This document shows, piece by piece, positions 28,252-51,327 of a stretch of 64,000 nt of DNA (the stretch's first letter is position 1; each line of letters starts with the position of its first letter). The translations under genes were made by a program, and so were the position numbers. The stretch lies in NCBI GenBank assembly GCA_022793815.1, contig JAAWDP010000011.1, positions 215,457-279,456 on the forward strand, read 5' to 3'. Below the pieces are notes generated by a model. The model ran no database searches. It was not told the DNA's origin and worked only from the letters and a program-made list of their open reading frames with translations. This stretch comes from Clostridia bacterium (GTDB lineage Bacteria; Bacillota; Clostridia; Christensenellales; Pumilibacteraceae).

Positions 28252-30341
28252 AAATAACGGTGGCGAAATACAGCGGATTTTGTTTCGGCGTAAAGGCGGC
28301 GGTCGAAATTGCCGAAAAACATTCGGCAGAGGGAGCATACTGCCTCGGAGAGATTATACATAACGAAAGCGTCGTATCGTCGCTTAAACGCAAAGGTCTT
28401 AAATTTGTCGATTCTCCCGATAAAGCGGACGGCGGCAAAATCATAATACGTTCGCACGGAGTCGGACGCAACGTATACAAAGAAATATCGGATATGGGGT
28501 TGACGGTAATAGACGCTACGTGTCCGTTTGTCAAAAAGATTCATTCTCTTGTGGACAAGTACAGTTCGGACGGCTATAAAATAGTTATAATAGGCAAACG
28601 CGGTCATCCCGAAGTAAAGGGAATAGAGGGATGGTGCCGCGGCGGAGCAACCGTTACAGAAAACGAGAACGAAGTTTTGCGTCTGCTGGAAAAGCATGAT
28701 AAAGAAGAAAAACTGTGTTTTGTGGCGCAAACTACTTATTCCCAAAAAAAATATGATGAAATAGTGAAAAAAATAGCAAATAGCGGATTGAAAACAGTTG
28801 AAATATTCGACACAATTTGCTATACTACTACTGAGCGGCAATTTGAAGCATTGCAGTTGGCTTCCGAGAACGACAAGGTGTTGGTCGTGGGCAGCAAAAG
28901 CAGTTCCAATACGACAAAGTTGTATGAAACCTGCAAATCCGTCCAATCGGAAATTTACCACATAGAGAAAGTTGCGGACTTAAAAAATATTAAATTTAAT
29001 CCCTACGACAGTGTTGCTGTTGTTGCGGGGGCGTCAACTCCCGAAGAGTTGATTTTGGAGGTAAAAGGTTACATGAGCGACAATTTTGAAGGCGTTAGCA
29101 AAGAGTTCGAAGACTTGATAAACGAGTCATTCGTACAGTACAAAGACGGCATGCGTATCAAAGGCACCGTTATCCATGCTAACGAGAGCGGCATCAAGGT
29201 GAATATCGGCGGAAAGAAAGACGGTTTCATCAAGAAAGAAGAGGTAAATGTAGACGGACGTTACGACCCGTCGCAGTACCCCGAGGGAACGGCTATCGAG
29301 GCGATAATCACAAACAAGAGCGATGCCGACAGCGGCTGCGTGCTTTTGTCCAAAAAGAAAGTGGACAAGATTAAAGAGGGCGACAAGGTCGTCGAAACGG
29401 TGCGCGGCGGCGAAGTGTTCGAGCTTGACGGAACACGCTCGATAAAGGGCGGTTTGCTCGGACATCTCGGAACCTATTCCGTATTCATTCCTGCATCTCA
29501 AATAAGAGAGAGAGGCGGATTCATTAAAGATTTGAAAGCCTTCGAAGGACAGAAACTTCGTCTTACGGCAATAGAAATCGACGATGAAAAACACGAGATA
29601 GTCGCAAGTCAGAGAAAAGTTCTCGAAGAAGAAAGAAAGGAAAAAGAAGACGTATTTTGGGCAAATGTCCGCCCGAACGTGGTTGTCAGCGGCGTGGTAA
29701 AGCGTGCGACAAACTTCGGAGCGTTTGTCAGTGTCGACGGCATCGATTGTCTTGCGCACATCGTGGATTTGTCGTGGTCGCACATAAAGTCGGTCGAAGA
29801 TGTTTTGAAAATCGGCGAAACATACGATTTCTTGGTGTTGAGTGCCGACAGAGAAAAGAACCGCGTTTCTCTCGGCTATAAACAGTTGCAGCCTCATCCG
29901 TTTGTGAAGGCAATGGAAAATCATCCCGTAGGTTCTGTCACCAAAGGCAAAGTAGTAAGCGTATTGCCGTTCGGTGCGTTTGTGGAAATCGAACCGGGAA
30001 TAGAGGGATTGGTGCACGTGTCCGAAGCCGCACACAACTTCGTCAAAAACATCAACGAAGTAGTAAAAGTGGGCGACGAAGTCGAAGTCAAAGTTCTTGC
30101 GGTAGACGAGCCCAATAAAAAAATCACGCTCAGCATAAAGGCTTGCCAGCAGGCACCCGAACAGCCCGTTTCGGAAAAGCCCGCTAAGACCGAAGAGCAA
30201 GGCGATTCGGCAGCAAAGCCCGATAGAAAACCCGCAAAAAAAGTACGGCAGGAAAAATCCGCGGAAGACCGTAGCGAATGGAGCGAAGAAATAAGCAATA
30301 ATCCGTTTGCGGACCTTTTGAAGGATTTGGACGTAAAATAA
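28248..30341 (+). CDS. ispH: fused IspH (HMBPP reductase) and S1 RNA-binding protein
   Basis: A 697-residue fusion. Residues 1 to about 280 are IspH, the last MEP-pathway enzyme, which reduces HMBPP to IPP and DMAPP; the three 4Fe-4S cysteines are in SGFCFGVKAA, DATCPFVKK and FDTICYTT. From about residue 295 four S1 domains follow; the third and fourth are clearest (GVVKRATNFGAFVSVDGIDCLAHI and GKVVSVLPFGAFVEIEPGIEGLVHV). The last 60 residues are Lys/Glu-rich. IspH-S1 fusions are known in Clostridia. The start is GTG 28248 (GTGA overlap with plsC). A terminator follows. Confidence 0.95.
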   Translation: MKITVAKYSGFCFGVKAAVEIAEKHSAEGAYCLGEIIHNESVVSSLKRKGLKFVDSPDKADGGKIIIRSHGVGRNVYKEISDMGLTVIDATCPFVKKIHSLVDKYSSDGYKIVIIGKRGHPEVKGIEGWCRGGATVTENENEVLRLLEKHDKEEKLCFVAQTTYSQKKYDEIVKKIANSGLKTVEIFDTICYTTTERQFEALQLASENDKVLVVGSKSSSNTTKLYETCKSVQSEIYHIEKVADLKNIKFNPYDSVAVVAGASTPEELILEVKGYMSDNFEGVSKEFEDLINESFVQYKDGMRIKGTVIHANESGIKVNIGGKKDGFIKKEEVNVDGRYDPSQYPEGTAIEAIITNKSDADSGCVLLSKKKVDKIKEGDKVVETVRGGEVFELDGTRSIKGGLLGHLGTYSVFIPASQIRERGGFIKDLKAFEGQKLRLTAIEIDDEKHEIVASQRKVLEEERKEKEDVFWANVRPNVVVSGVVKRATNFGAFVSVDGIDCLAHIVDLSWSHIKSVEDVLKIGETYDFLVLSADREKNRVSLGYKQLQPHPFVKAMENHPVGSVTKGKVVSVLPFGAFVEIEPGIEGLVHVSEAAHNFVKNINEVVKVGDEVEVKVLAVDEPNKKITLSIKACQQAPEQPVSEKPAKTEEQGDSAAKPDRKPAKKVRQEKSAEDRSEWSEEISNNPFADLLKDLDVK

Positions 30342-32793: not shown

Positions 32794-32869
32794 GGAAGTT
32801 TAGCTCAGTTGGGAGAGCATCTGCCTTACAAGCAGAGGGTCACAGGTTCGAGCCCTGTAACTTCCACCA
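32794..32869 (+). tRNA. tRNA-Val (anticodon TAC)
   Basis: A 76-base cloverleaf: acceptor GGAAGTT with AACTTCC, D arm GCTC...GAGC, anticodon arm CTGCC-TTACAAG-type loop with TAC, T arm ACAGG-TTCGAGC-CCTGT. The CCA end is encoded. The AT-rich accessory stretch begins just beyond its terminator. Confidence 0.97.
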
Positions 32870-33537: not shown

Positions 33538-33561
33538 TAATTTTAGTTTTTGGAGGAAACT

Positions 33562-34065
33562 ATGAAGAACAAATTTGGTAAAAATGATAAGCTTATCTTT
33601 CACGCTACGGTGTCAGCTGATGTTATTGCATGTATATATGCGGTAATTGGTTTACTTTATGGCATAGTGACAATAGTGAACGGTGCTCTGATTGAAAGCA
33701 CGGAAACTGTTTTAATTGGTATTTTTGTAATACTACTTGTATTTATTATAGTATTTGTTTCTTGGGTTTTCATTAAAATTTTTATTAATATGTGTTGTGA
33801 CATAAAGTTAATCCGCAATAAGCTCTATTCTATTGATAATTATTATTTGAATAAAATGGTTGCGGAAAAGCAAAGCAATATCGAGATGCAAGCAAATGGT
33901 ATTCAGGATGAACTCAACGCAGATTTATCACAGCAAAATATTCAACTTGCGAATAAGATTCAACAATTAAAGGCTCTAAAAGAATTATTGGATAGCGATA
34001 TCATATCGGATTCGGAATTTGAAAGAGAAAAGCAAAAAATATTGTCTATCGAGAACGAGCAATAA
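33562..34065 (+). CDS. membrane protein with C-terminal SHOCT domain
   Basis: A 167-residue protein. Two hydrophobic segments lie near residues 20-40 and 51-78. A charged, Gln/Asn-rich helical region follows (residues 90-135). The C-terminus IQQLKALKELLDSDIISDSEFEREKQKIL is a good match to the short SHOCT domain, often found at the ends of membrane proteins of unknown function and thought to mediate oligomerisation. GGAGG precedes ATG 33562. Base composition is visibly more AT-rich than the flanking core genes, in keeping with an accessory origin. Role unknown. Confidence 0.75.
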   Translation: MKNKFGKNDKLIFHATVSADVIACIYAVIGLLYGIVTIVNGALIESTETVLIGIFVILLVFIIVFVSWVFIKIFINMCCDIKLIRNKLYSIDNYYLNKMVAEKQSNIEMQANGIQDELNADLSQQNIQLANKIQQLKALKELLDSDIISDSEFEREKQKILSIENEQ

Positions 34066-34137
34066 ACCCATCGCCTTTAAAGTACATAAAAAGCAATGTG
34101 CAGACGATTATGAATATTAAATAAACAAGGAGATAAA

Positions 34138-34464
34138 ATGAAAGGTTCGACAAATAAATTTATAATTAAAAACGGAGTTTGTCCTCAATATATCGGTGCG
34201 CCGCTTCACATCAATGTTGGGGCTTTGCGCATATTGGTTTTTGATAAGAATGCTTGTGTAGGGGTAGTCTGGAAACATTTCGAAAACAGATATTCAGAAG
34301 CAAACGGACAAGCAGAGATACGCTTTTTTGAAAGATACAGAGAATCTTATGGTTTATGGCATAGAATGTTTGTAAATGAACAAAGAATATCGTATGACCG
34401 CTTACAATCTGCTCTAAATGAATCTAACGAATATATTTATTGGGCAAAAATCAAAGGGTATTAA
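34138..34464 (+). CDS. hypothetical protein, 108 residues
   Basis: A real-looking gene with AAGGAG seven bases before ATG 34138 and a terminator shortly after the stop, but no family I recognise. The product is soluble, without membrane segment or signal peptide. It is rich in Arg, Tyr and Trp (FFERYRESYGLWHRMF near residues 61-76) and ends NEYIYWAKIKGY. Two cysteines are far apart. It is AT-rich like its neighbours. It could be a small phage- or island-derived protein, but nothing around it (integrase, toxin, antitoxin) says so. Confidence 0.6.
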   Translation: MKGSTNKFIIKNGVCPQYIGAPLHINVGALRILVFDKNACVGVVWKHFENRYSEANGQAEIRFFERYRESYGLWHRMFVNEQRISYDRLQSALNESNEYIYWAKIKGY

Positions 34465-34506
34465 AAATTCGTTTTATGTTACTGCCGCTCCACCACAACA
34501 GTAATG

Positions 34507-34546
34507 ACGCGCACTTTGCTTTCGTATGGTGTGCGTTTTTCTTTTT
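34507..34546 (+). terminator. intrinsic terminator
   Basis: ACGCGCAC (34507-34514) pairs with GTGTGCGT (34529-34536), one G-T pair, 14-base loop, then TTTTTCTTTTT. Confidence 0.75.
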
Positions 34547-34626
34547 CGTATTTCCGTATACGATAAAATCCTATACTTAACAAAATATACCGCAGTATTG
34601 TCGTGTATAATTGTTTACGATTCTGC

Positions 34627-34656
34627 TTGAAAAATATATGTTACTTGTGTTATAAT
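34627..34656 (+). promoter_or_regulatory. promoter before the lipoprotein gene at 34710
   Basis: -35 TTGAAA (34627-34632), 18-base spacer, -10 TATAAT (34651-34656). The leader to ATG 34710 is about 45 bases. Confidence 0.65.
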
Positions 34657-34709
34657 AAAGCATAAACAGTAATTCGGCAAGATTGGTAAATAAAATCATG
34701 GAGTGGTTT

Positions 34710-34925
34710 ATGAAAAAGAAAACGATTTTTGCGGTGGCGTTATCGCTGATTATGTTAATATCAATGTTATCGCTGGCTGCTTGCAAAGATGAAGTCGTGT
34801 ATTATTCGGGAGAGTACGGACAGATAGACGCAGACAGTGAAAACTCCGTGATACCCAATGCAGTATCGCTTTTTGGGTTGAAGCGAACCTGTCAAAAAAG
34901 TAAAATGGAAATAACAGTGTACTAA
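34710..34925 (+). CDS. small lipoprotein, probably truncated
   Basis: A 71-residue product with a clear lipoprotein signal peptide: KKK, a hydrophobic core (TIFAVALSLIMLISMLS) and lipobox LAAC at residues 22-25. The mature part reads YYSGEYGQIDADSENSVIPNAVSLFG and then ends in a short basic tail. Most lipoproteins of this look are longer, so it may be the 5' remnant of a larger gene whose 3' part is lost. ATG 34710 with GGAG upstream is the best start; ATG 34698 is a weaker alternative. Function unknown. Confidence 0.6.
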   Translation: MKKKTIFAVALSLIMLISMLSLAACKDEVVYYSGEYGQIDADSENSVIPNAVSLFGLKRTCQKSKMEITVY

Positions 34926-36754: not shown

Positions 36755-36784
36755 TTGACATAATAAATGTAAATATGCTATAAT
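36755..36784 (+). promoter_or_regulatory. consensus promoter of the giant-protein operon
   Basis: -35 TTGACA (36755-36760), 18-base spacer, -10 TATAAT (36779-36784), both perfect consensus. GGAGAG sits before ATG 36823, leaving a leader of about 32 bases. No operator-like repeat is obvious, so expression may be strong and constitutive. Confidence 0.8.
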
Positions 36785-36822
36785 ATCTAATATAAATCGT
36801 ATTCGTAAAGGAGAGAAACTTT

Positions 36823-39800
36823 ATGAAGTATTCGCGGAATTTGTTGCGGAGTCGCAAAATTGCTTATGTGTTTTGCGCGTTTTTGTTTTGCATTGCATTT
36901 CTGTTCGGAGCGGTGTTGCCTACGGTTTACGCCCGAACATCTATAAACGAGTTGCCGCAGACAAACCGCGAAAGCGTTCAGGCAAATCCTTTGAGAGAAT
37001 ACACTTCGCTGTCTGTTTCCGTTCCCGAAGGACTTTCTATTTATACGAAAATTACCACGGCGGGGGATTTAAAACGTAACATTGTCGTTATGGGTACATA
37101 TTCCTCCGAACAAGGCGACGAAACCGTTGCTCTCAAGCCCACGGAATACACCGTGCGTCTGGACGGCAGAACTTACGCCGATTCTCAAAAATTTTTCGAA
37201 ACCGACGAGGATTCTGGCGAAACGGCTACCGTTCAGTTAACCTGCGGCAAGCAAGTCGTCACTATTGACGAGATACCCGTCATTCTATCGGTACCAGAAT
37301 ACTTAAAACTTAAAGTTATACTGAAAAGCGGCATTACCCAAATAGAGGACGACCACACTGCCGACACGCTCAAAAACGTATTGGATGTATACGGTGTCGA
37401 CGCCGCGGATAAAGAAACGCTGATTGTAAATAAAGAACTGTATATTGTCGAAACAGTAGTTCTGACACTCGGTAAAAACACTGTTACGGTAAAATACTTA
37501 CCCGATGAAAGCTGCATGGGCACACTGGCGGTGACTGCCGTTGCCGCGACTATTCAAAGCATTTCCGTAGAACCCGACCCGAAACTCGAATTAAGAAACG
37601 GATATTACTATAAGGAAAACGGTAACTCGGCTTTTGTCGCAGGTATGACGGGAGCCGAAATAATTACTTCTTTGCAAGTAAACGTTCATTATCAAAACAG
37701 CAAACGCGCAATAGAATTGGACGACAACGGAGAAGTATCTTCCGAAGATACCGAAATCAGCAGCTGCCGCGTAACCAACAGCAATTTTTCCGTAGGCAGT
37801 CAACAGGTAAATGTCACGGTTCGAACGTCCAGCAACTATTCATTTGCAGGAACCGTTTCTGTTCAGTTCGAGTCGCTGTCGGTAAAAAGTATAGCCCCGA
37901 CCTATATAAATACTTCTAAAATACTCACCACGGCAACGGAACTTATCGAAGATGATTTCGAGGTAATTCCCACGTACAATAACGGTACGGAGGGTTCGAA
38001 ACTGGATTCGGATAAATATACGGTCGAATCGTCTTTGATACCCACCGCCGCCGAATATGCGAGAATAACCGACGGCAAATACAGCAAGACCGTTTGGGTG
38101 ACATGTCCCAACGGAGTAAAAAATTCCGTTACGTTGAACAATGTTGAATATATTCCTCCGACGGAGATTATTCAGTTCGAGGGCAGGGCGGTAAGCCAGC
38201 CCGTGCTTAAAGAATTTGATTGCAGCGGTATCAATGTTATATTGTCGATAGACGGCAACGAAGTATATGCATCGCTCGAATCTTTGAGAAGTTATTGCAC
38301 ATTCACATACTACGAAGGAAGCGCAGTTTCCGAATTCGATTATATAACGCGCAATACAACCAAGGTCAAAGTCGAATGCAGCTATCCGGGAATAGAGCCG
38401 AAAAGCAGGGATTTTTCTTTCGGGTCTACTATTCAAGCCGATTATGCGATTCCGGATTTGGATGTTTCCGATTTGGATTTCAGCGAAGGCGTTTCCAAAA
38501 TCATAAAAGATATAGGCAGATTCGTTTCCGATAAATCCAATGTCAAAGTGTCCGTAACCGATATCGGCAGCGGTGAAATCGGCGCAATTTATAAAAACGA
38601 CGGCACTGTCGAAGTTTTCGATACGACATCCGAATCGCAGAAAGTAGGGGCAACATTCGATTCCTATTCGGGCGAAATAACTTTCACCCGCGGCGGAATT
38701 TTCACGGTTACTTTCGAACTTTTGGACGGAACGGATGGAAGTTACCGTTGGGCACAGCCGTCTGCGTCTAATCCCGACAGAGTGACGCCGCATCTTTTGA
38801 AATATACTCTTACGGTAAATAAAGCTTCGCTCGACGTTCGTTTGACAAAGAACGGCGCGGAGATTAAAAATTTAGAAGCCGTTTACGGAAGCCTTGACGA
38901 AGTGTTGGCGCAAATCGGTATCGACTGCATTACGGTCGGAAGCAATGTTTCCGTTGTCGATAAACCCGATTTCGAATTGAGGTATTACGGTAACGGTATT
39001 TCCTATGCAAATGCCACGACCGAGAAACCCAAAAATGTCGGGACGTATTACGTAGTTGCAGTAACCAAACCGACCGACGCATACGAGCAGTCCAAGACGT
39101 TTTCGGGTTTTGCCGTAAATCTTACCATAAAGCCGCGCCCCGTAAGCGTCGGTAACGTAATTAACAATCAGACGTATGACCGCAGAGCGTTTGAGTTAAC
39201 GGATTTTATAAAACTTTCGTCGGATGATGTGCTCGGCGAAGATTTGGTAGGCGGAAAGCTTCCCATTGAAATTGCGCCTTACGGAACGCAAACCGAATAC
39301 TTCCATGTCGATACATATCAAGCGAAACTTACTATCGCCAATCCGAATTACGTTTGGGAAAATCCCACGGACGCAAGTAAGCCGTTGGAAGTCATTGCCG
39401 AATTTCAAATCACGGAACCGCTCCAATCATTTGCGGTGGATTTCGTAGATGCGTTCGAATACTCCGACACATTGGCAAGCGCACCGCAAACACACAAGAC
39501 CAGCGAAAAATTTTTTGCAAGCATAGGCGAAGCAAAAATTTACCGTGTGGAAGCGGACGGCACCAAAACGGAAGTGCTTTTTGCCGATTATCAAACTTGG
39601 ACTGTCGGCAATTACATTGTCGAATTTACGGCGAGTGTCAACAAAGAAGCAGGCGATAACGAAAACGACTATCAGCCTTTTACGGTCGGCAAACAGTTCA
39701 AAGTCATAACCAAAAAAATAGACCGAGTTACGATTGAAACCGCTCCCGCCGTATATGACGGGGCTTCGCATGAATTTGTTCTCGAAAATTACCGCTCTGA

Positions 39801-42800
39801 TATAATGTCCTATACTGTTAAAGGACTCACATTCGGCAATACGGCTTTTGTTCAGGGAATCGTGTATGACAACTCGAATGCGCATGTTTCCGTAAAATAC
39901 GCAGGTACTTATACGGCAACCGTTTCCATAACCGATTCCAATTACGAATGGAAAACCGTGTCTTCGGACGGAAACGTATGCAAACCCGAATATACGCTCG
40001 GGCAGGAAGAAATTATAATAGTCTACGAGCAAGAGGATGTTTATCCCGCATATAAATTCCCGTACAATGCCGCAGTGCAGGAAACCCCTAAGTTCTCTGT
40101 CGGAAACATAAGGGTGGAAGCGGACGGATTGAATATAACATATTCAACTTATGCCGACGCGGATTTTTCGGCGGAAAAGCCTGTCGGAGGAATAGGCGTA
40201 TACTATATTAAATTTACTTTAACGGCAGGGTCTGCTGCGGACGGGTTCGATTTGTCCGAAAACTATGTTATGCCGACGAATTTACCCGAAAGTTTCGAAA
40301 TACTTTCGGCAAAATTGAATATACCCACTCTCAAAGGCGACTTATCGGACGGCGTTTCTTTGAAAGACGGTGCACTTTTCGCAACGTATAAAGGCGGAAT
40401 ATACAGCGCAGAAAAATATTTCAACGAAAACATTTCCGTATTCGAGATTACAGTTACAAAAGACACATCTAATGCCGATATTATAAACGTAGGTACTTGC
40501 ACGCTTCATATCGTTCCTGGGGAGAATTATTCCTGGGAAGACGGTCTTATTTTTAACGGAGTGCCTCTCGGGGAAAACGGCGAGGTTGTTTATACTTTTA
40601 CCGTAGAGCAGCTTGAAGTCGAAATAAGCTGGGATTCGAAAACTCTTACAAGCGTTTTCGATGCCGATAACAGGAATCAAAAACCTGCGGCAGGCATCGA
40701 CAACAAAAAGGGCGACGATAAGGTAAGCCTTGTTATCGAAGTCGGTTTTTCTGCCGAAGATGCCACTGCCGACGGAGTTTACGAAGCAGGCGTTTATACG
40801 GCTTACATCAAAAAATTGAACGGAGAAGATAAAGATAATTATAAAATCTCGTTCACATACACGCGTACATTCGTCATTCAAAAGCAAACCGTAGCAAGAC
40901 CGATTCCTACAAAAAACGAAATGGAATATGCAGACGGTACAACTGCGGGATTTGCAAACGATGCCGATTACTGGCAGTTTCTTTCGGGGTTGAATGTAAC
41001 AGAAAAAGTAGCGGGAACGAATCCTTGGTATACGGTGGACGGAGCAAACCCGAGTGTAACGGGCGGAGCGTTTGTTGTTTCAAGCGGAAAGTTTACATAC
41101 GAAAATGCAGGTAAATACACAGTTACCTTAACCTTGGGCGATGCGAAAAATTATTGCTGGGCGCCCGTCGGCAACGAAGCTTACGATATATATTCCGCTT
41201 ATTTCGAAACGGAATTTACGTTGACCGTTACTCCCAAATCACTGGTTGCTCCGACGATAGGCGATGACAGAGCCATGCGCTGGGACAATGACAATCCCTT
41301 GACGCCGACTCTTGATTTGTCGTCGCTTTCGGGTATGGATTTAACCGTACTTTACGGCAAATACGACGGCGGATATCAGGGTGTGGAATCGGCGACAAGC
41401 GTCGCTGCTTCACGCGGAGAATACTATGTCCGCTTCAAATTGAACGGTGACGGAATATACAATTACAGATTTACGGCAAATACGGACGACCATACAAGCA
41501 GTCTGCCTTCGTATTTATCGAAGTGGGAAGAATGTGTATATGTTGACGGAGATGTAAGCGTTTACATACATTTTGCCGTTACGAATACAATTCTCGATAT
41601 CGGATTCGAATTCGAAAACTTTGTTTTCGGCGATAATTACCAAAGTACCGAAATCGTTCTCGAAAATGTTATCGGCGCAACGGGAAACGACAGTGCGCTT
41701 TTGGAAGTAGAGTTTTCCGCCGGAAGAATAACCTTTGCGGAAGTTTTGTTTGAAGGTAAAGACGGCATTGTGGGTTCGTATGTTTACGAGGCGGGCAAAC
41801 CTTCTGTTATCGGCGAAGCACTGGTCGGCGGCTTGCCGTGGCATGCCGATACGTATACGGTAAGTATAGAGATACGTTTTGCGGCAGAAGGCGACAATGC
41901 TTCAAACTACGAAGATATAAAGAGTACTGCGACTTTGATTGTTTCTCCCCGTGTAATAGAAGCGGTATGGAGTAACGACGATTCGCTTATTGCGGAAGCG
42001 GCAGGCGGCGGCTACGAAGTTGTGTACGACGGAGAAGAACATACGTTGGTCGCCGAAATTGCCGACAGTGTTTTATACGGTAACGACAAAAACAAGTTTT
42101 CGCTTACGGTCGCTCTTTCCGAAAATCGCAATCAGCCTTCCGCCGTCAAGGGCGACGAAGAAGCATATATTCTCAAAGTAGTCGATATTTTGTTTGACGG
42201 AACGGCAACCGGGGATTATACCGTCAAGAAAAACGACGGCGAAACTTACGCATGCGAAAACAGACTTACCGTGAAACGCCGCGCCGTTAAACTTATACCG
42301 GAAATTTCAGGACATATTTACGGAAATGACGTAGGTATCGCCGATTGGAAATACGCCGTCGATTCGCTTGAATTCGCCGAAAAAGACAAAGCAAACGCAA
42401 AAACATTTATAGAAGTCAAGTTTCTCGATTTATCTGGCATGGCGGTGACTTCGCAGTCGTCCGTCGGAAGCGGTTACAAAGTTGTTCTTGCGAAAAAGGA
42501 CGGTCACGACGCATTTTTCGCAAATTACGACCTCAATATTTCCTCGACTGCCGCATATACGATTTCCCGCCGCAGTGTCGTTGTGACCATAGATACCGCG
42601 AAGGCTGCGAGCAAATACGGAGAAGCGATAAATCTGGGTGACGGCGTTTGGTCGGTGTCCGACGGCGCTATACCGCAGTTTGACGCCGAAAAATCGTTGT
42701 TTACGCTTACGGCAAAAGACGGGGACGCCGAAATCGATATCGAAACGCATGTCGGTTCGTATCCGATTGAATTCAAAAATACCGATTCCAATTATGAGTT

Positions 42801-45800
42801 TTCTTTCCGTGAGGTTTACAGTTATACTGTCACTAAAAACGTGCTGACCGTAGATGTTTCCCTTACTGTTTTCTGCGGGGAAAACAATCCCTCCGATTAC
42901 GACGGAAACGGTGTGACGTATCATGCGACAAGAGATTATTTGCGTACCGATACCGAAATGTATACCGTCAAGGGATTCAAAAACGGAGAAGAAACGGCAT
43001 GGGAGCAGGGCAGTCTTGACGGGTACGGCGGAACATTCGATTACGCTGTGGATTACGACCCCGCAAATTGCACCGCGCGTGATTATGAAATAACGCTCAT
43101 ACTTGACGGAGCAAATCCGCTTGTTTCGAAAAACTATGAGTTTGTTGCCGGAAATTGTGTGCTGCATGTTGTGCCCGTATCTCTTGTTGTCAAAGTGAAA
43201 AGCACCTATGCGATTTACAATACTTCGGATGTTTTGGCTTTGGATTACAATGTAGAGCTTCCGCTTTCCAAATACGGTACGGGTTTGTTCGTAGCCGAAC
43301 CGTCCGATTATGCGGATATATTCGAATTGAAAACCGAAGCTTTTGACGCGGTTGTCGGTTCTACTACGAATAATGCCGATTTTTACACTGTCGTTTGCAA
43401 TGTAAAGAACGGCAATTATTCCGTGGATTTAAGAGCCGCCGACGGTTCGAAAAATCCTACGTTCGAAATACGCAGAGCAGAATTAAATATGGCTACGGTA
43501 AATGCATACGGCGGAGATTACGACGAGAAAGCGCATTTTGTACTTATCCTCGACGGAGAGGAAGAAGTCGAAGTGACAGACGGCGTGACATTACCCGAAT
43601 ATGTCGCACGTTTTGCGTCGGCAAGCGACGGCGGTACGATTACCGTTTACTTTATTATGAGCAGCACCAGGCTTTCTTCCGTCGATTGGAACAAGGCAAG
43701 CGAATCTATGCCTACGGTAACGGATGCAGGCGAATATTATGTTTATTACCGCATAGTTTCGGATAACGGAAACTATGAACCCAAAGACCGTAATGCTCTT
43801 ATTTTAGTCGAGCAGTCCGAAAACAAATTTATCGATAAAGCCGTTTTCGGTAACGGAAGCGATATCAAAGCAAGTTCCGAAGTTCTCGGCGAAGATTTTG
43901 CGGTACTCGCCGAATTCGCTTGGGGATACGGCTTGTACGACGAAAAAGATAATCTTTACGGTTATAACTCTGCAAGTGCAGACCATTGTGCTACAATGCC
44001 GGAAACGGTTTTCAAAAAAGGCGCGAGTACGGTTACGGTAAAACTTTATTACTATTCGGACATCAATGAGGTCGGGCTTGAAATAGGCTCGGGCACCGAC
44101 ATTTCCGCGCTTATCGGGCAGGCGTTTGCCGACGGACGAATCAATGCGGGATATTACCGCTTCGAATTTGCAATGAATGGAACGGCAAACTATTTCGATG
44201 CGGTGGGAAGTCGTGTGTTTAAAGTAGACAAAAAGACGCTTTCCGTCACGCCTCACGATAAAGAAACGATTTACGGAAGCACAGATATTCCCGAATTCAC
44301 ATTTGAATACAGCGGATTCGTATGCGGCGGTAAAACCGAAAACGGCAGTTTGGTTAAGGATACTTTGCAAGACGTTGCGCTTAGCGTAGTCCCCGTGTTC
44401 GGCGCGGTTTACAGTGTGGGTGACAATGCTGGTGACTATACGATTTCGTGCGATAACGAAACCGATTGTGTTTCACGGAACTACCGCCTTATTTGCAATA
44501 CGGCGACGCTTACCGTAACACCCAGAGAGGTTACAATCGCTATTGCGGATTTGGAAAATTTCTTCAACCTCGACGACGGAACCGCCGTACCGCAAAGCAA
44601 ACATGAATTAGTCTATACGGTTTCTTCACAGCTGAAATTCTATGAACCCGACGGCGATGTAATAAATTTGTTCAGCGACGCTTACAATCCTTGCGACGAG
44701 AGCGAAAAGACCAACAATGTCGGACTTTACCCGATTTTTGCAAAGTGGACAAATGCCGAACATAAAGGCAACTATATAATAAAGTTCGTATGCAGCGAAA
44801 AAGGCAAAGACCTTGTATTGCCTTCGGATTCCGATATCGTAGTCGATTCCGAGGAAGGGGTCGTGAGTTGGGGCACATTCGAAATAAAGAGTGCGCAGCT
44901 TGTAATAGGTTATGACGCGCCGTCCGAAACATACGACGGGAACGAACGCATTATAGTTCCGCAATTGAGCGGAAAATACGAGAAGCTTAAATTCGTAACT
45001 AAATATTATTCGGTAGTAAACGATGAAGACATCTTGCTTGCCGACGGCGTATATCCGATTGATGTGGGCTCGTATAAGTTCGAATTCATTTACGATTCGC
45101 AGTATCAGAACTATATATCTGCCCGTTCGCAGTTCGGCTTCGAGATTAAACCTGCGGACTTGACCGTAGAAGTCAATAATACGGATATACCTTACGGAAC
45201 CGATTTCTCGCAGATGTTCGGTGTCGGCAATGTGGAATACGTCACGTACAGAATAGGGTCGCTTTCCGCGGCAGCCGTGGAAAACGCGATAAAACGCGAA
45301 AAAGACAAGAATACGCAAAGCGTTACATATTTCGACGACAGCGCTATTCGATACACATGTGCCGATTATACTGCTACGCAGAATGCAGGACGCAATTTCA
45401 CTGTCGAAGTCGATACAGACAGCATAATTTCCAAAAATTACAAGGTTACATTCAATAAGATATCGGGCAATCTCAGAGTCGTGAAACGAGATGTTATATT
45501 TACCGTACTCGGTTACGACAATGCAGATAAAATAAATGCGCAGGGATTGTACGGGCAGCATCATAAGGATGTTTTGAACGAGCAGTTCAACGGCAATATG
45601 GGTCGGTTTCTTTCTCCCGTGACAGCAGGCTGGAACGGAAGCAGCCGTGACGGCTACGAAGCGCTGTGCGTGGAATTGGCTGTAAATGCCACATATTTGA
45701 GCGATGTCGGCGACACTTACGTTATTACGGCAACGTCGTCGTCCTTGAATTATAATGTTCGGTTCGAATACGGTGCGGGTGCATTTTATAAAGTAAATCA

Positions 45801-48800
45801 AGCTCCGCTTACGGTTCGTGCGGTGACCGATTCCACCGTCATCTACGGCAATGCGGCAAATTATTCCTATTCGTTCAGCGGATTCAAAAACGACCAGGAT
45901 TACAGACAGTTGGTCGATAATGCGGGTGCGGAATACGTAACGGGACAGCTTGTCGCATCTTCCGATTATACACGTTGGAGCAGTCAGGCGGGGCAGGTTT
46001 GCACCGTGACTTACGAAGGTTCTACACTTTGGTTCAAAAACTACGAAGTAACTTATGCGTCGGTGAAGTTCACCGTGGTTTCTCGGGTTGTGTCGTTGGG
46101 CGAGTTAAAGTCGCTTACGTACACCGAGGACGGCGACGATTATCACGGCGGCGAATACGGCGCAAAACATGTCCCGACATTGAATTTCTCAAACGCGTAT
46201 GTCGGCAGCGACAATACGTATAAGCCCGTATTTACTTTGTCCTATTACAATACCAGAACGGGGCAGACTCTTTCCGACGCAAGAACGGCAGACGAATATC
46301 GCGTGACCGTCACGCTTAGTGCAAACGGTGTTGCGGGAGGAACCTATTATAACTATGTATTCGAAGGCGAGCTTACAAGCATTACCGCCGCCCGTGATTT
46401 CACGGTTAATAAAAAGAGCATAGGGCTTGCGTGGAGTCCTTCGTATATCAATTTCGATACGGCGACCGATAAGTCTAGCTCGGTTTACGATGTAATAGAG
46501 TCGATAATGAATGTCGACGAGGTTTACAGACAATACAATCTGGATTCCTCTACGGTTGCGACCGAACCTTTGGAAAAAGGTGACGGATACGAGTGGAACG
46601 GCGTTACGTTGTCGCTGACGGCAAAAAATACGGGAAATTTCCATGCCGTAATAACGCTTAACGAAAAAGCGGTGCAAAACTATATTCTCGGCGACGGTGT
46701 CAATGTCGGCACAAGCGTAAGACTTATACTTCGCGTGGTATCCGATAACGAATCCGTCAATCTCGGCGTCGAAATCAAAGGCTGGGTATATAACGAACCG
46801 CAAAACAGTCCGATAGGAACTATTGTGGGAGACGGCGATACGAATCTCATACATTATACCTACGCGCTTGCAGAACCTAATGTCGAATACAAGGATTTAC
46901 CCGAATACCTGAAAGTATGTTTTACCGACGAAATGCTTTTGAACGAACTGGGAATACGAAACGGCAATGCGGCGTTCGGCGATAAGCCTTTTGAGGCAGG
47001 TATATATGTTGTACGCGCTTACTATCCCACGGGTCAAAGTGCATACTATGTATTCGAAATCAAGCAGGCTGTTATGACGGCTCCGAGTGCGCCGAGTACC
47101 GATTATCGGTATAACGGCAGCAGACAGGAACTTCGCTATACGTTTGAAGATGCCATGAAAGTTTCGGCGCATTACGACGGAGATAAAACATATACGTCTT
47201 CGGCAATCACTCTTTTTGCGACCGATGCGGGCAGATACGTAATAGAGTTTTCTCTGTCCGATACGAGAAACTATAAATGGACCGACGGAGTCGTGCTTAA
47301 TTCCGACGGAAAAGTGGAGATAGTTTGGATTATCGATAAAGCAGCCGACGAGATAATCGATTTCGGAGATTATTCCGAAACTTACGGTGACGGCGGAGTG
47401 CCTTCGGCAAATGCCGTATCGCGCGAGCACGTGTATTTGGTTTACAGACCTATGACCGATGCCGAACTTTCGTATACTCCCGACGATTATGTTAAATTAG
47501 ACGCTTACACGGACGGTTGGGGCGATAAACCGAAAGACCACGGAAACTATTGGATAAAGGCGGTCAGCAACGGTAACGGAAACTATGAAACCGCTTGGGC
47601 GTATGCAAGACTGACCATAGATAAAAAGACGCTTATAGCCACGCCGAATGCCACAATCGTTTACGGCACTATGTTCAACCCGAACGCTACGATAAAAGAC
47701 GGCTACGGCTATACGTTAAGCGGATTCGTCGGAACGGATACGGAAAGCGATTCTGCGCCTGTCGGTACGGTTACATATAAACTTGTCGGCAGCTACGGGG
47801 TCGGCGACATTCTCGACGCATCCGACACCCGCTATAAAATCACTTTGGAAACCGAAAACGGCGAAGTACTCGGGCTTACGTCAAGAAACTATCGTGTTAT
47901 CGCGGCGGAAGGAAACTTTATCGTATTGAAGCGAACAGTCAATGTCAGAATCGGCGATACCGAAGTCATATACGGCGATATTCTCGATACCGATAAAGTC
48001 AAGCTGGATATAGCCGAAAAAGACATAAGCCCAGTCGCGCTGGGCATAACGCTCAAACTTGACAATGCGGATATTACGGCAAAACTGAATGTCGGAAGCT
48101 ATACGCTTATGATTGCGTCTTATTCCGACGGAAATTACGATATATCCGTAACGACCGGTATTTACAGAGTCATTGCGCGTTCGATAGAAATTGCAACCAT
48201 GCATTCCGACGGGGGCACGGTGGGAGCAACCGACGGCGCGGAAGTTCTGTCCATGTACGATGCTTCCGACCCGTTTAACAAAAAGCCTCTCGGTGCCGCC
48301 GCTTTCGGAACAATCAAGAACATGCTTGCTTATACTTATACGGGAACGACTGACGGCAGTATGCCGACTTCGGCGGGTACTTATTATGTAACGGTGTCCG
48401 TGGACAGTGCAAACTATGTCTTGGTAGGACAGACCAGTTACCTGTTCGAAATATCGAGGCGTGTGATAGACGCAAGTGAAATTTCGCTTGAAAGCATGCA
48501 GTATACGGGCGATGTAATCGATGTGTCGTCAATTCGTGTAAATTACGGTTCGTACGATTCTTCCGTATTTACGGTGAGTTTTGACGGAACTTTGAAAGAA
48601 GTCGGGTTCTATACGCTTACGCTTGTATTGACCGACTTCGACAATACCAAATGGCTGTCTGTCGATACCGTTCAAAGAAGTATATCTTTCGAAATAACGC
48701 AAGCGGATAACGTATTGGAGTCGCTGAGCGTTAAAGGCTGGGTATACGGCAGTTATGACCGAGTGGAAAACGCGCCGCATGCGGTAACGAAATTCGGCAA

Positions 48801-49644
48801 TCCGTCGGACTATGTGTATACTTACTATGCCGACAGCAACGGTCGGCCTCAATGGTCCGAACCGCTTTTGGGAGTGCCTGTCAATGCGGGAAAATATTGG
48901 GTTACCGTATATGTGCCCGAGTCCAAAAATTTCAAGAGTCTGCCTGCCGACAAGCCGACGCAGTTTACCGTCGAAAAGGCTGTGCAAAACACGCCTTCAC
49001 TCGGAATTATTACAGAGGGCGACGGAAAGAACGATACATATACAGGGGCGAATTTACAAGCCGAAATAGTCGGCTTCGATACTTCGCTCATGGAAATTTA
49101 TTATGACGGAATTTCCAATATCAGCGGAAACCGTGTCAGCGTGTATGCCGTTAATGCCGGAATCTATACGGTAAAACTTGTTTTGAAAAATGCGGATAAT
49201 TACCGCTGGTCCGATAATGCGGAGATTGATTCCGACGGAAATGCTTTGCTTAAATGGACAGTCGCCCGCAAGAAACTGTCAAGTCCCTCTGCCGATACGG
49301 GAATTTACGTGGTAAACGGAAATGTTTTGACTTATGTTCCCGTCGGTTTCGATTCCGAAACCATGAATATAAGCGGCAATACGACAAGTTACGGCGGAGA
49401 TTATCAAGTCGTAGTTACGTTGAAGGATACGGATAACTATGAGTGGGAGGACGGAACCGCATCGAGTTACGTATTTGTTTGGCATGTTGTCGGAGCGGAT
49501 ACGGTATTTGTCGCTGTCGTTGCAAGTCTTTGTGTTTTGACCGTTGTGACGGGCGGTATTGCTCTTATTCAATTTTTGGGGCATAAGCGTCGTATATCGG
49601 ATTTGTCCGTTGCAAGCGAAACGAAAGAGGGAGGTGACGAATAA
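36823..49644 (+). CDS. giant surface protein of tandem MBG/Ig-like repeats
   Basis: A 4273-residue ORF without interruption. Residues 1-38 are a signal peptide (basic start, hydrophobic core, VYA-R cleavage). Residues 38 to about 660 are beta-rich, lower-similarity domains. From about 665 to 4220 roughly 30 divergent repeats of 70-150 residues follow, many starting with a linker such as KKTLSVTP or RRAVKLIP and a Y-G-x or Y-D-G turn; several match the MBG domain pattern (TIYGSTDIPEFTFEYSGF near 2482). A membrane helix near 4227-4251 precedes HKRR and an acidic tail. There is no LPxTG motif, so anchoring is by the helix. It probably acts as a long adhesive or stalk protein. It overlaps the next gene by one base. 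Confidence 0.9.
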   Translation: MKYSRNLLRSRKIAYVFCAFLFCIAFLFGAVLPTVYARTSINELPQTNRESVQANPLREYTSLSVSVPEGLSIYTKITTAGDLKRNIVVMGTYSSEQGDETVALKPTEYTVRLDGRTYADSQKFFETDEDSGETATVQLTCGKQVVTIDEIPVILSVPEYLKLKVILKSGITQIEDDHTADTLKNVLDVYGVDAADKETLIVNKELYIVETVVLTLGKNTVTVKYLPDESCMGTLAVTAVAATIQSISVEPDPKLELRNGYYYKENGNSAFVAGMTGAEIITSLQVNVHYQNSKRAIELDDNGEVSSEDTEISSCRVTNSNFSVGSQQVNVTVRTSSNYSFAGTVSVQFESLSVKSIAPTYINTSKILTTATELIEDDFEVIPTYNNGTEGSKLDSDKYTVESSLIPTAAEYARITDGKYSKTVWVTCPNGVKNSVTLNNVEYIPPTEIIQFEGRAVSQPVLKEFDCSGINVILSIDGNEVYASLESLRSYCTFTYYEGSAVSEFDYITRNTTKVKVECSYPGIEPKSRDFSFGSTIQADYAIPDLDVSDLDFSEGVSKIIKDIGRFVSDKSNVKVSVTDIGSGEIGAIYKNDGTVEVFDTTSESQKVGATFDSYSGEITFTRGGIFTVTFELLDGTDGSYRWAQPSASNPDRVTPHLLKYTLTVNKASLDVRLTKNGAEIKNLEAVYGSLDEVLAQIGIDCITVGSNVSVVDKPDFELRYYGNGISYANATTEKPKNVGTYYVVAVTKPTDAYEQSKTFSGFAVNLTIKPRPVSVGNVINNQTYDRRAFELTDFIKLSSDDVLGEDLVGGKLPIEIAPYGTQTEYFHVDTYQAKLTIANPNYVWENPTDASKPLEVIAEFQITEPLQSFAVDFVDAFEYSDTLASAPQTHKTSEKFFASIGEAKIYRVEADGTKTEVLFADYQTWTVGNYIVEFTASVNKEAGDNENDYQPFTVGKQFKVITKKIDRVTIETAPAVYDGASHEFVLENYRSDIMSYTVKGLTFGNTAFVQGIVYDNSNAHVSVKYAGTYTATVSITDSNYEWKTVSSDGNVCKPEYTLGQEEIIIVYEQEDVYPAYKFPYNAAVQETPKFSVGNIRVEADGLNITYSTYADADFSAEKPVGGIGVYYIKFTLTAGSAADGFDLSENYVMPTNLPESFEILSAKLNIPTLKGDLSDGVSLKDGALFATYKGGIYSAEKYFNENISVFEITVTKDTSNADIINVGTCTLHIVPGENYSWEDGLIFNGVPLGENGEVVYTFTVEQLEVEISWDSKTLTSVFDADNRNQKPAAGIDNKKGDDKVSLVIEVGFSAEDATADGVYEAGVYTAYIKKLNGEDKDNYKISFTYTRTFVIQKQTVARPIPTKNEMEYADGTTAGFANDADYWQFLSGLNVTEKVAGTNPWYTVDGANPSVTGGAFVVSSGKFTYENAGKYTVTLTLGDAKNYCWAPVGNEAYDIYSAYFETEFTLTVTPKSLVAPTIGDDRAMRWDNDNPLTPTLDLSSLSGMDLTVLYGKYDGGYQGVESATSVAASRGEYYVRFKLNGDGIYNYRFTANTDDHTSSLPSYLSKWEECVYVDGDVSVYIHFAVTNTILDIGFEFENFVFGDNYQSTEIVLENVIGATGNDSALLEVEFSAGRITFAEVLFEGKDGIVGSYVYEAGKPSVIGEALVGGLPWHADTYTVSIEIRFAAEGDNASNYEDIKSTATLIVSPRVIEAVWSNDDSLIAEAAGGGYEVVYDGEEHTLVAEIADSVLYGNDKNKFSLTVALSENRNQPSAVKGDEEAYILKVVDILFDGTATGDYTVKKNDGETYACENRLTVKRRAVKLIPEISGHIYGNDVGIADWKYAVDSLEFAEKDKANAKTFIEVKFLDLSGMAVTSQSSVGSGYKVVLAKKDGHDAFFANYDLNISSTAAYTISRRSVVVTIDTAKAASKYGEAINLGDGVWSVSDGAIPQFDAEKSLFTLTAKDGDAEIDIETHVGSYPIEFKNTDSNYEFSFREVYSYTVTKNVLTVDVSLTVFCGENNPSDYDGNGVTYHATRDYLRTDTEMYTVKGFKNGEETAWEQGSLDGYGGTFDYAVDYDPANCTARDYEITLILDGANPLVSKNYEFVAGNCVLHVVPVSLVVKVKSTYAIYNTSDVLALDYNVELPLSKYGTGLFVAEPSDYADIFELKTEAFDAVVGSTTNNADFYTVVCNVKNGNYSVDLRAADGSKNPTFEIRRAELNMATVNAYGGDYDEKAHFVLILDGEEEVEVTDGVTLPEYVARFASASDGGTITVYFIMSSTRLSSVDWNKASESMPTVTDAGEYYVYYRIVSDNGNYEPKDRNALILVEQSENKFIDKAVFGNGSDIKASSEVLGEDFAVLAEFAWGYGLYDEKDNLYGYNSASADHCATMPETVFKKGASTVTVKLYYYSDINEVGLEIGSGTDISALIGQAFADGRINAGYYRFEFAMNGTANYFDAVGSRVFKVDKKTLSVTPHDKETIYGSTDIPEFTFEYSGFVCGGKTENGSLVKDTLQDVALSVVPVFGAVYSVGDNAGDYTISCDNETDCVSRNYRLICNTATLTVTPREVTIAIADLENFFNLDDGTAVPQSKHELVYTVSSQLKFYEPDGDVINLFSDAYNPCDESEKTNNVGLYPIFAKWTNAEHKGNYIIKFVCSEKGKDLVLPSDSDIVVDSEEGVVSWGTFEIKSAQLVIGYDAPSETYDGNERIIVPQLSGKYEKLKFVTKYYSVVNDEDILLADGVYPIDVGSYKFEFIYDSQYQNYISARSQFGFEIKPADLTVEVNNTDIPYGTDFSQMFGVGNVEYVTYRIGSLSAAAVENAIKREKDKNTQSVTYFDDSAIRYTCADYTATQNAGRNFTVEVDTDSIISKNYKVTFNKISGNLRVVKRDVIFTVLGYDNADKINAQGLYGQHHKDVLNEQFNGNMGRFLSPVTAGWNGSSRDGYEALCVELAVNATYLSDVGDTYVITATSSSLNYNVRFEYGAGAFYKVNQAPLTVRAVTDSTVIYGNAANYSYSFSGFKNDQDYRQLVDNAGAEYVTGQLVASSDYTRWSSQAGQVCTVTYEGSTLWFKNYEVTYASVKFTVVSRVVSLGELKSLTYTEDGDDYHGGEYGAKHVPTLNFSNAYVGSDNTYKPVFTLSYYNTRTGQTLSDARTADEYRVTVTLSANGVAGGTYYNYVFEGELTSITAARDFTVNKKSIGLAWSPSYINFDTATDKSSSVYDVIESIMNVDEVYRQYNLDSSTVATEPLEKGDGYEWNGVTLSLTAKNTGNFHAVITLNEKAVQNYILGDGVNVGTSVRLILRVVSDNESVNLGVEIKGWVYNEPQNSPIGTIVGDGDTNLIHYTYALAEPNVEYKDLPEYLKVCFTDEMLLNELGIRNGNAAFGDKPFEAGIYVVRAYYPTGQSAYYVFEIKQAVMTAPSAPSTDYRYNGSRQELRYTFEDAMKVSAHYDGDKTYTSSAITLFATDAGRYVIEFSLSDTRNYKWTDGVVLNSDGKVEIVWIIDKAADEIIDFGDYSETYGDGGVPSANAVSREHVYLVYRPMTDAELSYTPDDYVKLDAYTDGWGDKPKDHGNYWIKAVSNGNGNYETAWAYARLTIDKKTLIATPNATIVYGTMFNPNATIKDGYGYTLSGFVGTDTESDSAPVGTVTYKLVGSYGVGDILDASDTRYKITLETENGEVLGLTSRNYRVIAAEGNFIVLKRTVNVRIGDTEVIYGDILDTDKVKLDIAEKDISPVALGITLKLDNADITAKLNVGSYTLMIASYSDGNYDISVTTGIYRVIARSIEIATMHSDGGTVGATDGAEVLSMYDASDPFNKKPLGAAAFGTIKNMLAYTYTGTTDGSMPTSAGTYYVTVSVDSANYVLVGQTSYLFEISRRVIDASEISLESMQYTGDVIDVSSIRVNYGSYDSSVFTVSFDGTLKEVGFYTLTLVLTDFDNTKWLSVDTVQRSISFEITQADNVLESLSVKGWVYGSYDRVENAPHAVTKFGNPSDYVYTYYADSNGRPQWSEPLLGVPVNAGKYWVTVYVPESKNFKSLPADKPTQFTVEKAVQNTPSLGIITEGDGKNDTYTGANLQAEIVGFDTSLMEIYYDGISNISGNRVSVYAVNAGIYTVKLVLKNADNYRWSDNAEIDSDGNALLKWTVARKKLSSPSADTGIYVVNGNVLTYVPVGFDSETMNISGNTTSYGGDYQVVVTLKDTDNYEWEDGTASSYVFVWHVVGADTVFVAVVASLCVLTVVTGGIALIQFLGHKRRISDLSVASETKEGGDE
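38820..49500 (+). repeat. tandem MBG/Ig-like protein repeats inside the giant gene
   Basis: The repeat is at protein level; the DNA has diverged, so no long direct repeats are seen. Recurring marks are N-Y-x-W motifs with Asn at residues 842, 1040, 1235, 1443, 3483, 4126 and 4205 (for example NYKWTDG, NYRWSDN, NYEWEDG), two KGWVY motifs at 3319 and 3971, and linkers of the form (K/R)(K/R)-x-(L/V/I). The count of about 30 units is my estimate by eye. Confidence 0.7.
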
Positions 49645-50681
49645 TGGAATCGGCACTGATATTTTCTCCGGGGCAGCTTACCTTATGCATAGCGATAGGA
49701 CTTATTTTTGCCGGGCTTGTCGCTTTGAATATTTTGTTTGCCGTGATTTACAGGGTAAAGGCGGAACGGAAACTGCATAGCGAACAATTACAGCAGAAAC
49801 GTCAGGCACTGTTGGATAAACTTGCGTATTTGAAAGCGGGAGGCGAAGTCGAGTCTACCAGCTGGTTGAATTATGTTGTCGAGGATGAGGACGAAGAAGA
49901 CGTCCCCGACAAAAAATACGTAACCGTGAGAATGGCTGTCGGCGAGCAACCGCCTAATACGGAAATAATCGAAGTGAGCGGAATGTCGCCGCGTATGCGC
50001 CGCAAACTCGGTTTCCGTGCAAAAAGATATAACGGCAAGCGCTTTTATGTTCGTTATTTGCTCGGGTTCGATGCACGCCTGCGTTTTTCGGACGATGAAA
50101 CAAAAGCGCGTTATATCGATTTTATGGAATATGTTAAATCGTATGTCGGCGTGTCTGTTTCAAAGCACTTCGGATGCCATAAGATATGTCTGGGAAAAGA
50201 TGTTATAGGCATGGTCTTATTCGGCGGTAAAAGAATTTGCATTGCGTTTGCTCTTAATCCATCCGATTACGAAAATACAAAGTACAAGGCTGAGGATAAG
50301 TCCGATAAACGCCGTTTTGCAAAAACTCCCATGTTTGTGCGTGTGGGCAGCGACGATAAACTGAACAATGCCAAATATTTGTTCGGGGAATTGGCTCGTG
50401 AACGCGGATTGCAGCAAATATCACGCAAGAAAGGTAAATATGATTTGACGGAACTTACGCGCGAGGAGATGATTGTTACGGGTTCGGTGAGAGTCGTTAT
50501 AATCGATGAAGCTCCGAATTTTGCGCCAACAAAAGACAACAGGTCGGAATTTGAAAAAGCAATATCCGAACCGAATGCGGTTGCGGAAGAAAAAGAAGAG
50601 TTCGAACGGCTTGAAGCCGTAACGTCGGAAGCCGCCGCAACATGTATTAACGCAGGCTTGGAGGAAGTTGAAAATGTCTAA
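49644..50681 (+). CDS. bitopic membrane protein with cytosolic domain, partner of the giant protein
   Basis: A 345-residue protein with one N-terminal membrane helix (residues about 10-35), a helical KAERKLHSEQLQQKRQ stretch, an acidic linker (VVEDEDEEDVPDKK, 74-87), a basic MSPRMRRKLGFRAKRY segment, then a globular domain (about 130-260). Its marks are RLRFSDDETKARYIDFM, FALNPSDYENTKYKAED and NNAKYLFGEL. I recall that pattern from uncharacterised clostridial proteins, with no known function. The C-terminus is Glu-rich. It shares one base with the giant gene and has no promoter of its own, so the two should be made together. A cytoplasmic role tied to the giant protein is inference. Confidence 0.75.
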   Translation: MESALIFSPGQLTLCIAIGLIFAGLVALNILFAVIYRVKAERKLHSEQLQQKRQALLDKLAYLKAGGEVESTSWLNYVVEDEDEEDVPDKKYVTVRMAVGEQPPNTEIIEVSGMSPRMRRKLGFRAKRYNGKRFYVRYLLGFDARLRFSDDETKARYIDFMEYVKSYVGVSVSKHFGCHKICLGKDVIGMVLFGGKRICIAFALNPSDYENTKYKAEDKSDKRRFAKTPMFVRVGSDDKLNNAKYLFGELARERGLQQISRKKGKYDLTELTREEMIVTGSVRVVIIDEAPNFAPTKDNRSEFEKAISEPNAVAEEKEEFERLEAVTSEAAATCINAGLEEVENV

Positions 50682-50901
50682 AAAAAGCGAATTGAAAAAA
50701 GCCATAGTGGAAAGCAAACAAGAAATCGACAATTTGGAAAAAAAGCTTTTCCGCTCCCAAACGGCGCTTTTATCTGCTGTCTTGAATCATGAAAAGCCGA
50801 GCGACAGGGATGCCGAGTATTTTCGGTTGTATACGTCGCTTATAAATGTAGAGCGCGAAAATTTGCAAGAATTGACCGAAGAATTGAAAAATGCGGATTA
50901 G
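50674..50901 (+). CDS. small coiled-coil protein, third gene of the giant-protein operon
   Basis: A 75-residue, highly charged helical protein: SKKSELKKAIVESKQEIDNLEKKLFRS near the start shows heptad-like Leu/Ile spacing (residues 5-30), and ERENLQELTEELKNA ends a second helix. There are no cysteines, no signal peptide and no membrane segment, so it should stay in the cytosol. GGAGG lies upstream of ATG 50674 inside the previous gene, which it overlaps by eight bases. I do not recognise a family. It may help the cytosolic domain of the neighbouring protein oligomerise. Confidence 0.65.
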   Translation: MSKKSELKKAIVESKQEIDNLEKKLFRSQTALLSAVLNHEKPSDRDAEYFRLYTSLINVERENLQELTEELKNAD

Positions 50902-51309: not shown

Positions 51310-51327
51310 TTTCGCCGAAAGGCAGCG

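Follow-up and report, generated by a model that had tools for sequence, protein, structure and literature searches.

The window analysed here is a stretch of 64,000 nucleotides from a Clostridia bacterium (assembly GCA_022793815.1, contig JAAWDP010000011.1, positions 215,457 to 279,456). It carries three overlapping genes, referred to as P1, P2 and P3, which encode a giant secreted repeat protein with a C-terminal transmembrane (TM) segment, a bitopic partner ending in a domain that we call D, and a small helical protein. Sequence comparisons indicate that the giant and its partner form a recurring module across the order to which the host belongs. The features of the locus, numbered from the first letter of the window, are the following:

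36755-36784, plus strand: sigma-70-like promoter, TTGACA-N18-TATAAT with a TG upstream of the -10 element (extended -10), from the promoter scan and the sequence
36807-36815, plus strand: ribosome-binding site AAAGGAGAG ahead of the ATG at 36823, from the sequence
36823-49644, plus strand: P1, secreted repeat protein of 4,273 amino acids (aa) with a C-terminal TM anchor, from a single open reading frame (ORF), profiles, hydropathy and collinear relatives of 4.3-4.7 kaa
36823-36936, plus strand: predicted signal peptide of P1, residues 1-38, ending in VYA, from the sequence and a hydrophobic segment (cleavage site putative)
38692-49470, plus strand: main stretch of divergent MBG/PKD/Ig-like repeats, with ~26 profile-detected copies, from an iterated profile and Pfam
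44239-44514, plus strand: best MBG_2 (PF18676) unit, residues 2473-2564, 27.9 bits against a Pfam cut-off of 25
49504-49569, plus strand: TM helix that anchors P1 at its C-terminus, about residues 4228-4249, with a short basic tail behind it on the cytosolic side (GHKRRISDL...), from sequence and hydropathy
49644-50681, plus strand: P2, bitopic partner of 345 aa with a short N-terminal tail, one TM segment, a basic juxtamembrane stretch, an acidic linker and the D domain, from sequence and hydropathy
49683-49751, plus strand: TM segment of P2, about residues 14-36, from hydropathy, with topology by the positive-inside rule
50037-50522, plus strand: D domain of P2, about residues 132-293 (~160 residues), order-restricted and with a YdhG/YjbR-like predicted fold, from searches and AlphaFold
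50674-50901, plus strand: P3, helical hairpin protein of 75 aa that overlaps P2 by 8 nucleotides, from the sequence and an AlphaFold model

An earlier note on this DNA, made from the letters alone, had described an uninterrupted 12.8-kb gene behind a perfect-consensus promoter, followed by two small genes with overlapping ends, and this description holds. P1 is a single ORF; its stop codon shares one nucleotide with the ATG of P2 (TAATG), and the overlap of P2 with P3 has already been given. The promoter is the sole site within 15 kb that matches the consensus at all 12 of 12 positions, although its spacer is 18 rather than the optimal 17, and promoter-like sites overall occur at chance level (28 observed against 24.2 expected from shuffles). 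Within the operon the same scan returned weak sites only, at chance frequency. The three genes are laid out as a predicted co-transcribed unit. Three tRNA genes lie downstream of P3, as does, at 51327, a hairpin that resembles a terminator and carries a T run.

The N-terminus of P1 has a basic n-region ahead of a long hydrophobic core that starts at residue 13; after its last hydrophobic helix, from residue 4228, it ends in a tail of ~24 residues that is basic at its start. No LPxTG-like motif ([LIVNQ]PxT[GAS]) was found in the protein. The signal peptide and the membrane helix in place of a sorting signal, both proposed before, are upheld as a predicted membrane topology. An iterated profile built from P1 alone detects 26-27 divergent repeats between residues ~310 and 4216, so that the previous estimate of about 30 MBG/Ig-like units was fair in number; their assignment is less firm, as most units lie below the family thresholds. 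P1 passes the curated cut-off for MBG-repeat membership (PF18676/PF18887) with one MBG_2 unit, which scored 36.7 bits in a further search, and the other repeats gave only sub-threshold Pfam matches to MBG_2, MBG_3 and PKD.

The host can be placed with the Pumilibacteraceae, a group of gut Clostridia, by the relatives of the module, among which the cultured Pumilibacter muris and many metagenome-assembled genomes (MAGs) of gut Clostridia carry names; NCBI places Pumilibacter in the Pumilibacteraceae, Clostridia. The window lies on a 299-kb contig of a 1.71-Mb genome that is 98% complete. Sortase (PF04203) was detected neither in this genome nor in any of 74 genomes of the family, while three control genomes were positive. 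The genome does encode Mur ligases, so the cell builds a wall but lacks the enzyme that usually anchors proteins to it.

Relatives of P1 were sought in the family with its N-terminus alone, independently of the partner genes, and P1-type giants were found in other genera. The giant of a genome of the same genus aligns end to end with P1 at 36% identity (its first ~230 residues lay off the stretch compared), and giants of several further genera are collinear with it at ~28-31% identity. All complete non-fused giants measure between 4,273 and 4,664 aa, so the number of repeats does not drift freely, unlike in many adhesins, and the giant is a conserved protein whose size is nearly fixed. In all eight complete giants whose 3' end lies on the contig (genomes G000, which is the host, G033, G030, G048, G049, G050, G052 and G054), a P2 homologue follows directly downstream. 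Homologues of the giant occurring mostly without their partner, the outcome that would have spoken against the module, were thus not what the search returned as regards P2. Because P1 is collinear with the giant of the same genus and the layout recurs elsewhere, the three-gene arrangement is not due to chance.

The pairing also holds when it is approached from the side of the partner. At the loci of named genomes, an ORF of at least 400 aa with a C-terminal TM segment lies directly upstream of the D gene in 53 of 76 cases, against 8 of 918 for the other genes in the same loci. The sample from the family gives 29 of 63 against 17 of 1,176, and it provides the fairer estimate, as the named-genome sample was drawn with a query of typical D domains. 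The host genome itself holds a second trio on contig 15, in which the first protein (1,714 aa) combines LRR_5 with a C-terminal TM segment, the D protein measures 304 aa and the third member is homologous to P3; the ectodomain therefore need not be of the MBG type. Furthermore, in some loci (L071 twice, L072, L083 and L089) signal peptide, ectodomain, a single TM segment and D are fused in one chain, which would place D on the cytosolic side of the surface protein's own anchor. The surface stalk with a dedicated inside partner that the earlier note had suggested thus gains support from the adjacency in eight of eight giants, from the recurrence throughout the order and from the fusions.

The membrane segments of the two proteins vary together. 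Distances between anchor regions of the giants and between TM regions of the D proteins are correlated with r=0.92 over 78 pairs (permutation maximum 0.15), and the TM cores alone with r=0.76. After removal of the distances of the neighbouring ectodomain and of the D domain, the TM cores retain a partial correlation of 0.49, while ectodomain and D domain given the TM segments retain 0.03. Among paralogues of the same genome, two anchor types stay matched to two partner types. Classes of TM segments defined at cluster level fell nearly all in one D class and so carry no concordance signal.

The D domain belongs to no Pfam or NCBIfam family and found no relative by sequence in the PDB. Within the order it is present in 138 of 297 genomes (42 of 126 genera), in one to three copies, up to three of them in tandem; a sample of 398 genomes of the phylum yielded one marginal match only outside the host genome. 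AlphaFold2 with 92 relatives gave a confident model (pLDDT 89, pTM 0.81), whose predicted fold comes closest, among solved structures, to YdhG/DUF1801, YjbR/DUF419, the C-terminal domain of T4 MotA and frataxin (Z 8.5-5). The leading matches among these folds and DUF5655 reach Z 8.5-7.0 over about 92-104 residues, and the top four chains Z 8.1-8.5 with a root-mean-square deviation of 3.0-3.3 over 96-104 residues, near the level of common arrangements. Foldseek returned a best match with an E-value of 4e-3. The matches from a viral structure library were all weak, either DUF5655-like (a DUF5655 phage protein with an E-value of 1.7e-3) or to uncharacterised phage proteins. Sequence identity to the YdhG/YjbR-type proteins is 5-12%, and these are mostly soluble single-domain proteins whereas D is membrane-tethered. 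Their profiles (DUF1801/DUF419) had no match in P2 and none among the families shown for 18 relatives. The likeness of the modelled D domain would accordingly be one of fold, near common arrangements, and reveals no function. Scattered weak matches of the P2 domain and P3 to Tox-URI2, KIF9, ion channels and coiled coils were judged to be due to chance.

Two of the 18 D proteins scanned carry a domain like ribosomal protein uL15 at their C-terminus (PF00828, E-value 6e-12), which Pfam does not detect in the P2 of the window. Such a stretch was seen in L050:3601-5118, L070:3767-5362 and at the C-terminus of L055, and the proteins concerned are likely to be misannotated as ribosomal proteins. Elsewhere in the host genome, G000:C7:7493-7645 (L287) holds a partial D match of 51 residues (E-value 1e-7), possibly a remnant.

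P3 is modelled with high confidence as a two-helix hairpin (pLDDT 97). It has no family in Pfam, NCBIfam or PDB sequence searches, a FliT/DUF5660-type match stayed below the cut-off, and the fold search led to generic helical hairpins, which are uninformative. Searched for on its own, P3 has homologues in 19 of 297 genomes, with up to five copies per genome, and the 49 loci from this search were inspected by hand. In 32 of them the neighbour of P3 is a D gene, a giant or a further surface protein that has a cytosolic tail, and a AIRTKATVDATIAAVRA-like motif is common to most of these tails; in nine, P3 ends an operon with a hybrid kinase, a REC-HD-GYP-GGDEF regulator and an HPt protein, members that were assigned by eye (from the sequence of one example and gene sizes elsewhere) and not by profile search. 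A second class of surface proteins, which have the conserved tail (AIRTKATVDATIAAVRA...) and are directly followed by a P3-family gene, with no D partner, stands at L141, L143, L148-L150, L152, L155-L157, L160, L162 and L163. The kinase type is seen at L127:4404-10181, and similarly at L128-L131, L136, L137, L151 and L154, where a hybrid histidine kinase with receiver domains, the REC-HD-GYP-GGDEF regulator, a protein of HPt size and a terminal P3-family gene follow one another, possibly a phosphorelay with a new small partner. The host has a third, solitary P3-family gene (G000:C23:26610-26825, L125), which has a gene for a small polytopic membrane protein beside it and a NusG-like gene downstream.

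We lean, with moderate confidence, towards a sortase-independent surface stalk held by a two-protein membrane anchor, in which P1 and P2 are joined in the membrane, D is the cytosolic end and P3 a soluble adaptor, and this model is favoured mainly because of the fusions and the obligate adjacency. The signal peptide would export P1, whose ~26 small beta-rich repeats would build a stalk of nearly fixed length, while its last helix would remain in the membrane with the ~24-residue tail in the cytosol. P2 would insert next to P1, its TM segment pairing with the anchor helix, and D would dock to cytosolic factors. P3 may act as a shared adaptor or regulator that engages the cytosolic parts of surface proteins and that could come under phosphorelay control. 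Such a complex would presumably serve adhesion or contact display; more broadly, a role in display, sensing or mechanical coupling may be envisaged. More tentatively, and with less probability, the module may be one form of an order-wide transmembrane system with exchangeable ectodomains (MBG stalks, LRR and other Ig-like domains), a split anchor with a bitopic cytosolic half and a P3 link to phosphorelays, which would take the place of sortase and also act as an outside-in sensor in gut Clostridia of the Christensenellales type.

Several observations weigh against the two-protein anchor. About 30-50% of the sampled D proteins have no qualifying surface gene upstream within the stretch covered, partly on account of contig ends and fusions. 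Five fusions (L055, L057, L054, L049 and L061) retain both TM segments, and simple counting would then place D outside; these chains have, just ahead of the second TM segment, a 15-residue segment with a mean hydropathy of 1.5-2.0 that could span the membrane or be a cut site. The co-evolution of the TM regions is partly confounded by the co-inheritance of adjacent genes, and because linked inheritance accounts for part of the correlation, the pairing of the P1 and P2 helices is to be taken as supported by the sequence distances and no further. As to P3, eight of the 49 loci have other neighbours, with no surface gene seen, and no P3 was detected next to the giants in G033, G049, G050 and G052. 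Since it is downstream of P2 in the window and upstream of the giant in G030, G048 and G054, besides being missing from those four, P3 appears to be a frequent yet exchangeable member, looser than P2. The third gene as a fixed member of the operon, as first proposed, has to be given up, given also the surface-protein/P3 pairs and the phosphorelay operons; from the trio expected in relatives, the pair of giant and P2 does recur, while P3 is not fixed and the ectodomain, as in the LRR_5 paralogue, is not always MBG.

Sensing through a phosphorelay is a serious rival, because P3 stands at the end of kinase operons, even if we think it rather unlikely here. P1 would bind a surface or polymer and signal through the P1-P2 contact to D and P3, and from there into a phosphorelay of hybrid kinase, REC-HD-GYP-GGDEF regulator and HPt protein controlling cyclic-di-GMP or gene expression. 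The nine kinase operons of the 49 P3 loci fit this proposal, as does locus L043, where a P3 gene ahead of a giant comes after the C-terminal end of a REC domain. However, the surroundings of the trio of the window, as far as they were inspected, showed no phosphorelay gene, D has no recognisable signalling motif, and no direct link between D and a kinase was found. Weaker, and quite improbable, is a membrane-tethered binding of nucleic acid or ribosomes, by which D, together with the uL15-like tail of some relatives, would hold ribosomes, or the mRNA of the giant, close to the translocon while the huge protein is exported. It would account for T4 MotA among the structural neighbours (Z 7.0) and for the uL15-like domain in two of 18 D proteins; yet P2 itself lacks that domain, the likeness to MotA goes no further than common arrangements do, and D proteins also pair with ectodomains of a few hundred residues, for which special export is unneeded.

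The tight translational overlap and the obligate pairing would suit P2 and P3 as export or assembly factors (chaperones) for P1 that stay outside the finished surface complex. This we hold to be very improbable, as the single-TM fusions tie D permanently to the surface protein and as many as three copies of D can stand in tandem. That P1 is a large adhesin and the small genes behind it have nothing to do with it might be suggested by the lack of a known function for P2 and P3, but it is contradicted by the upstream counts (53/76 against 8/918), the eight of eight P1 orthologues, the fusions and the paralogous trio, and can hardly be believed.

The DNA around the operon offers some further observations. 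Immediately 5' of it, positions 33550-34925 form a stretch of low GC content (35-37%) with small ORFs, including one for a SHOCT-domain protein; a tRNA-Val gene at 32794 adjoins this stretch, which is possibly acquired DNA. Further upstream, one 697-aa ORF at 28248-30341 joins LytB/IspH to S1 RNA-binding repeats (PF02401 and PF00575).

Long Ig-like or MBG repeat ectodomains behind a signal peptide are shared by P1 and the sortase-anchored MBG/Big-repeat adhesins of Gram-positive bacteria. P1 differs from these in its TM anchor instead of LPxTG, the absence of sortase, the dedicated bitopic partner and a length that is nearly constant between genera. In Mycoplasma, gliding proteins such as Gli349 combine very large size and a surface location with a coupling to partners inside; their likeness to P1 and P2, a giant surface protein with an internal partner, is an analogy only. 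The Csc clusters of Lactobacillus plantarum (CscA-D) encode putative multi-protein cell-surface complexes, of which CscA starts with a signal peptide and is anchored by a TM segment at its C-terminus (PMC1534035), as is predicted for P1. According to the portions of that report considered here, the Csc clusters use DUF916 and WxL domains and an LPxTG protein, and a membrane-tethered cytosolic partner, such as P2 is predicted to be, is not among the features described. The family of the window has no sortase, and Pfam finds neither DUF916 nor WxL families in P1-P3 at E<=1 or in pieces of P1 at E<=0.5.

Surface proteins of giant size built of repeats are known, as are surface complexes encoded by several genes (e.g. 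Csc, PMC1534035). The open-licence literature searched gave no description of the present module, in which a membrane-tethered cytosolic partner has a domain that is confined to the order and not described so far, and accompanies varying ectodomains in bacteria that lack sortase. An earlier description elsewhere is possible, and the chance that the module is a system of its own is a real one. For many gut Clostridia, MAGs are almost the only source of knowledge, and pooled annotation would label P1-P3 as hypothetical proteins, or partners with a uL15-like tail as ribosomal proteins. The module bears on the question of how bacteria that have a wall but no sortase present long proteins on their surface or link them to the inside of the cell.

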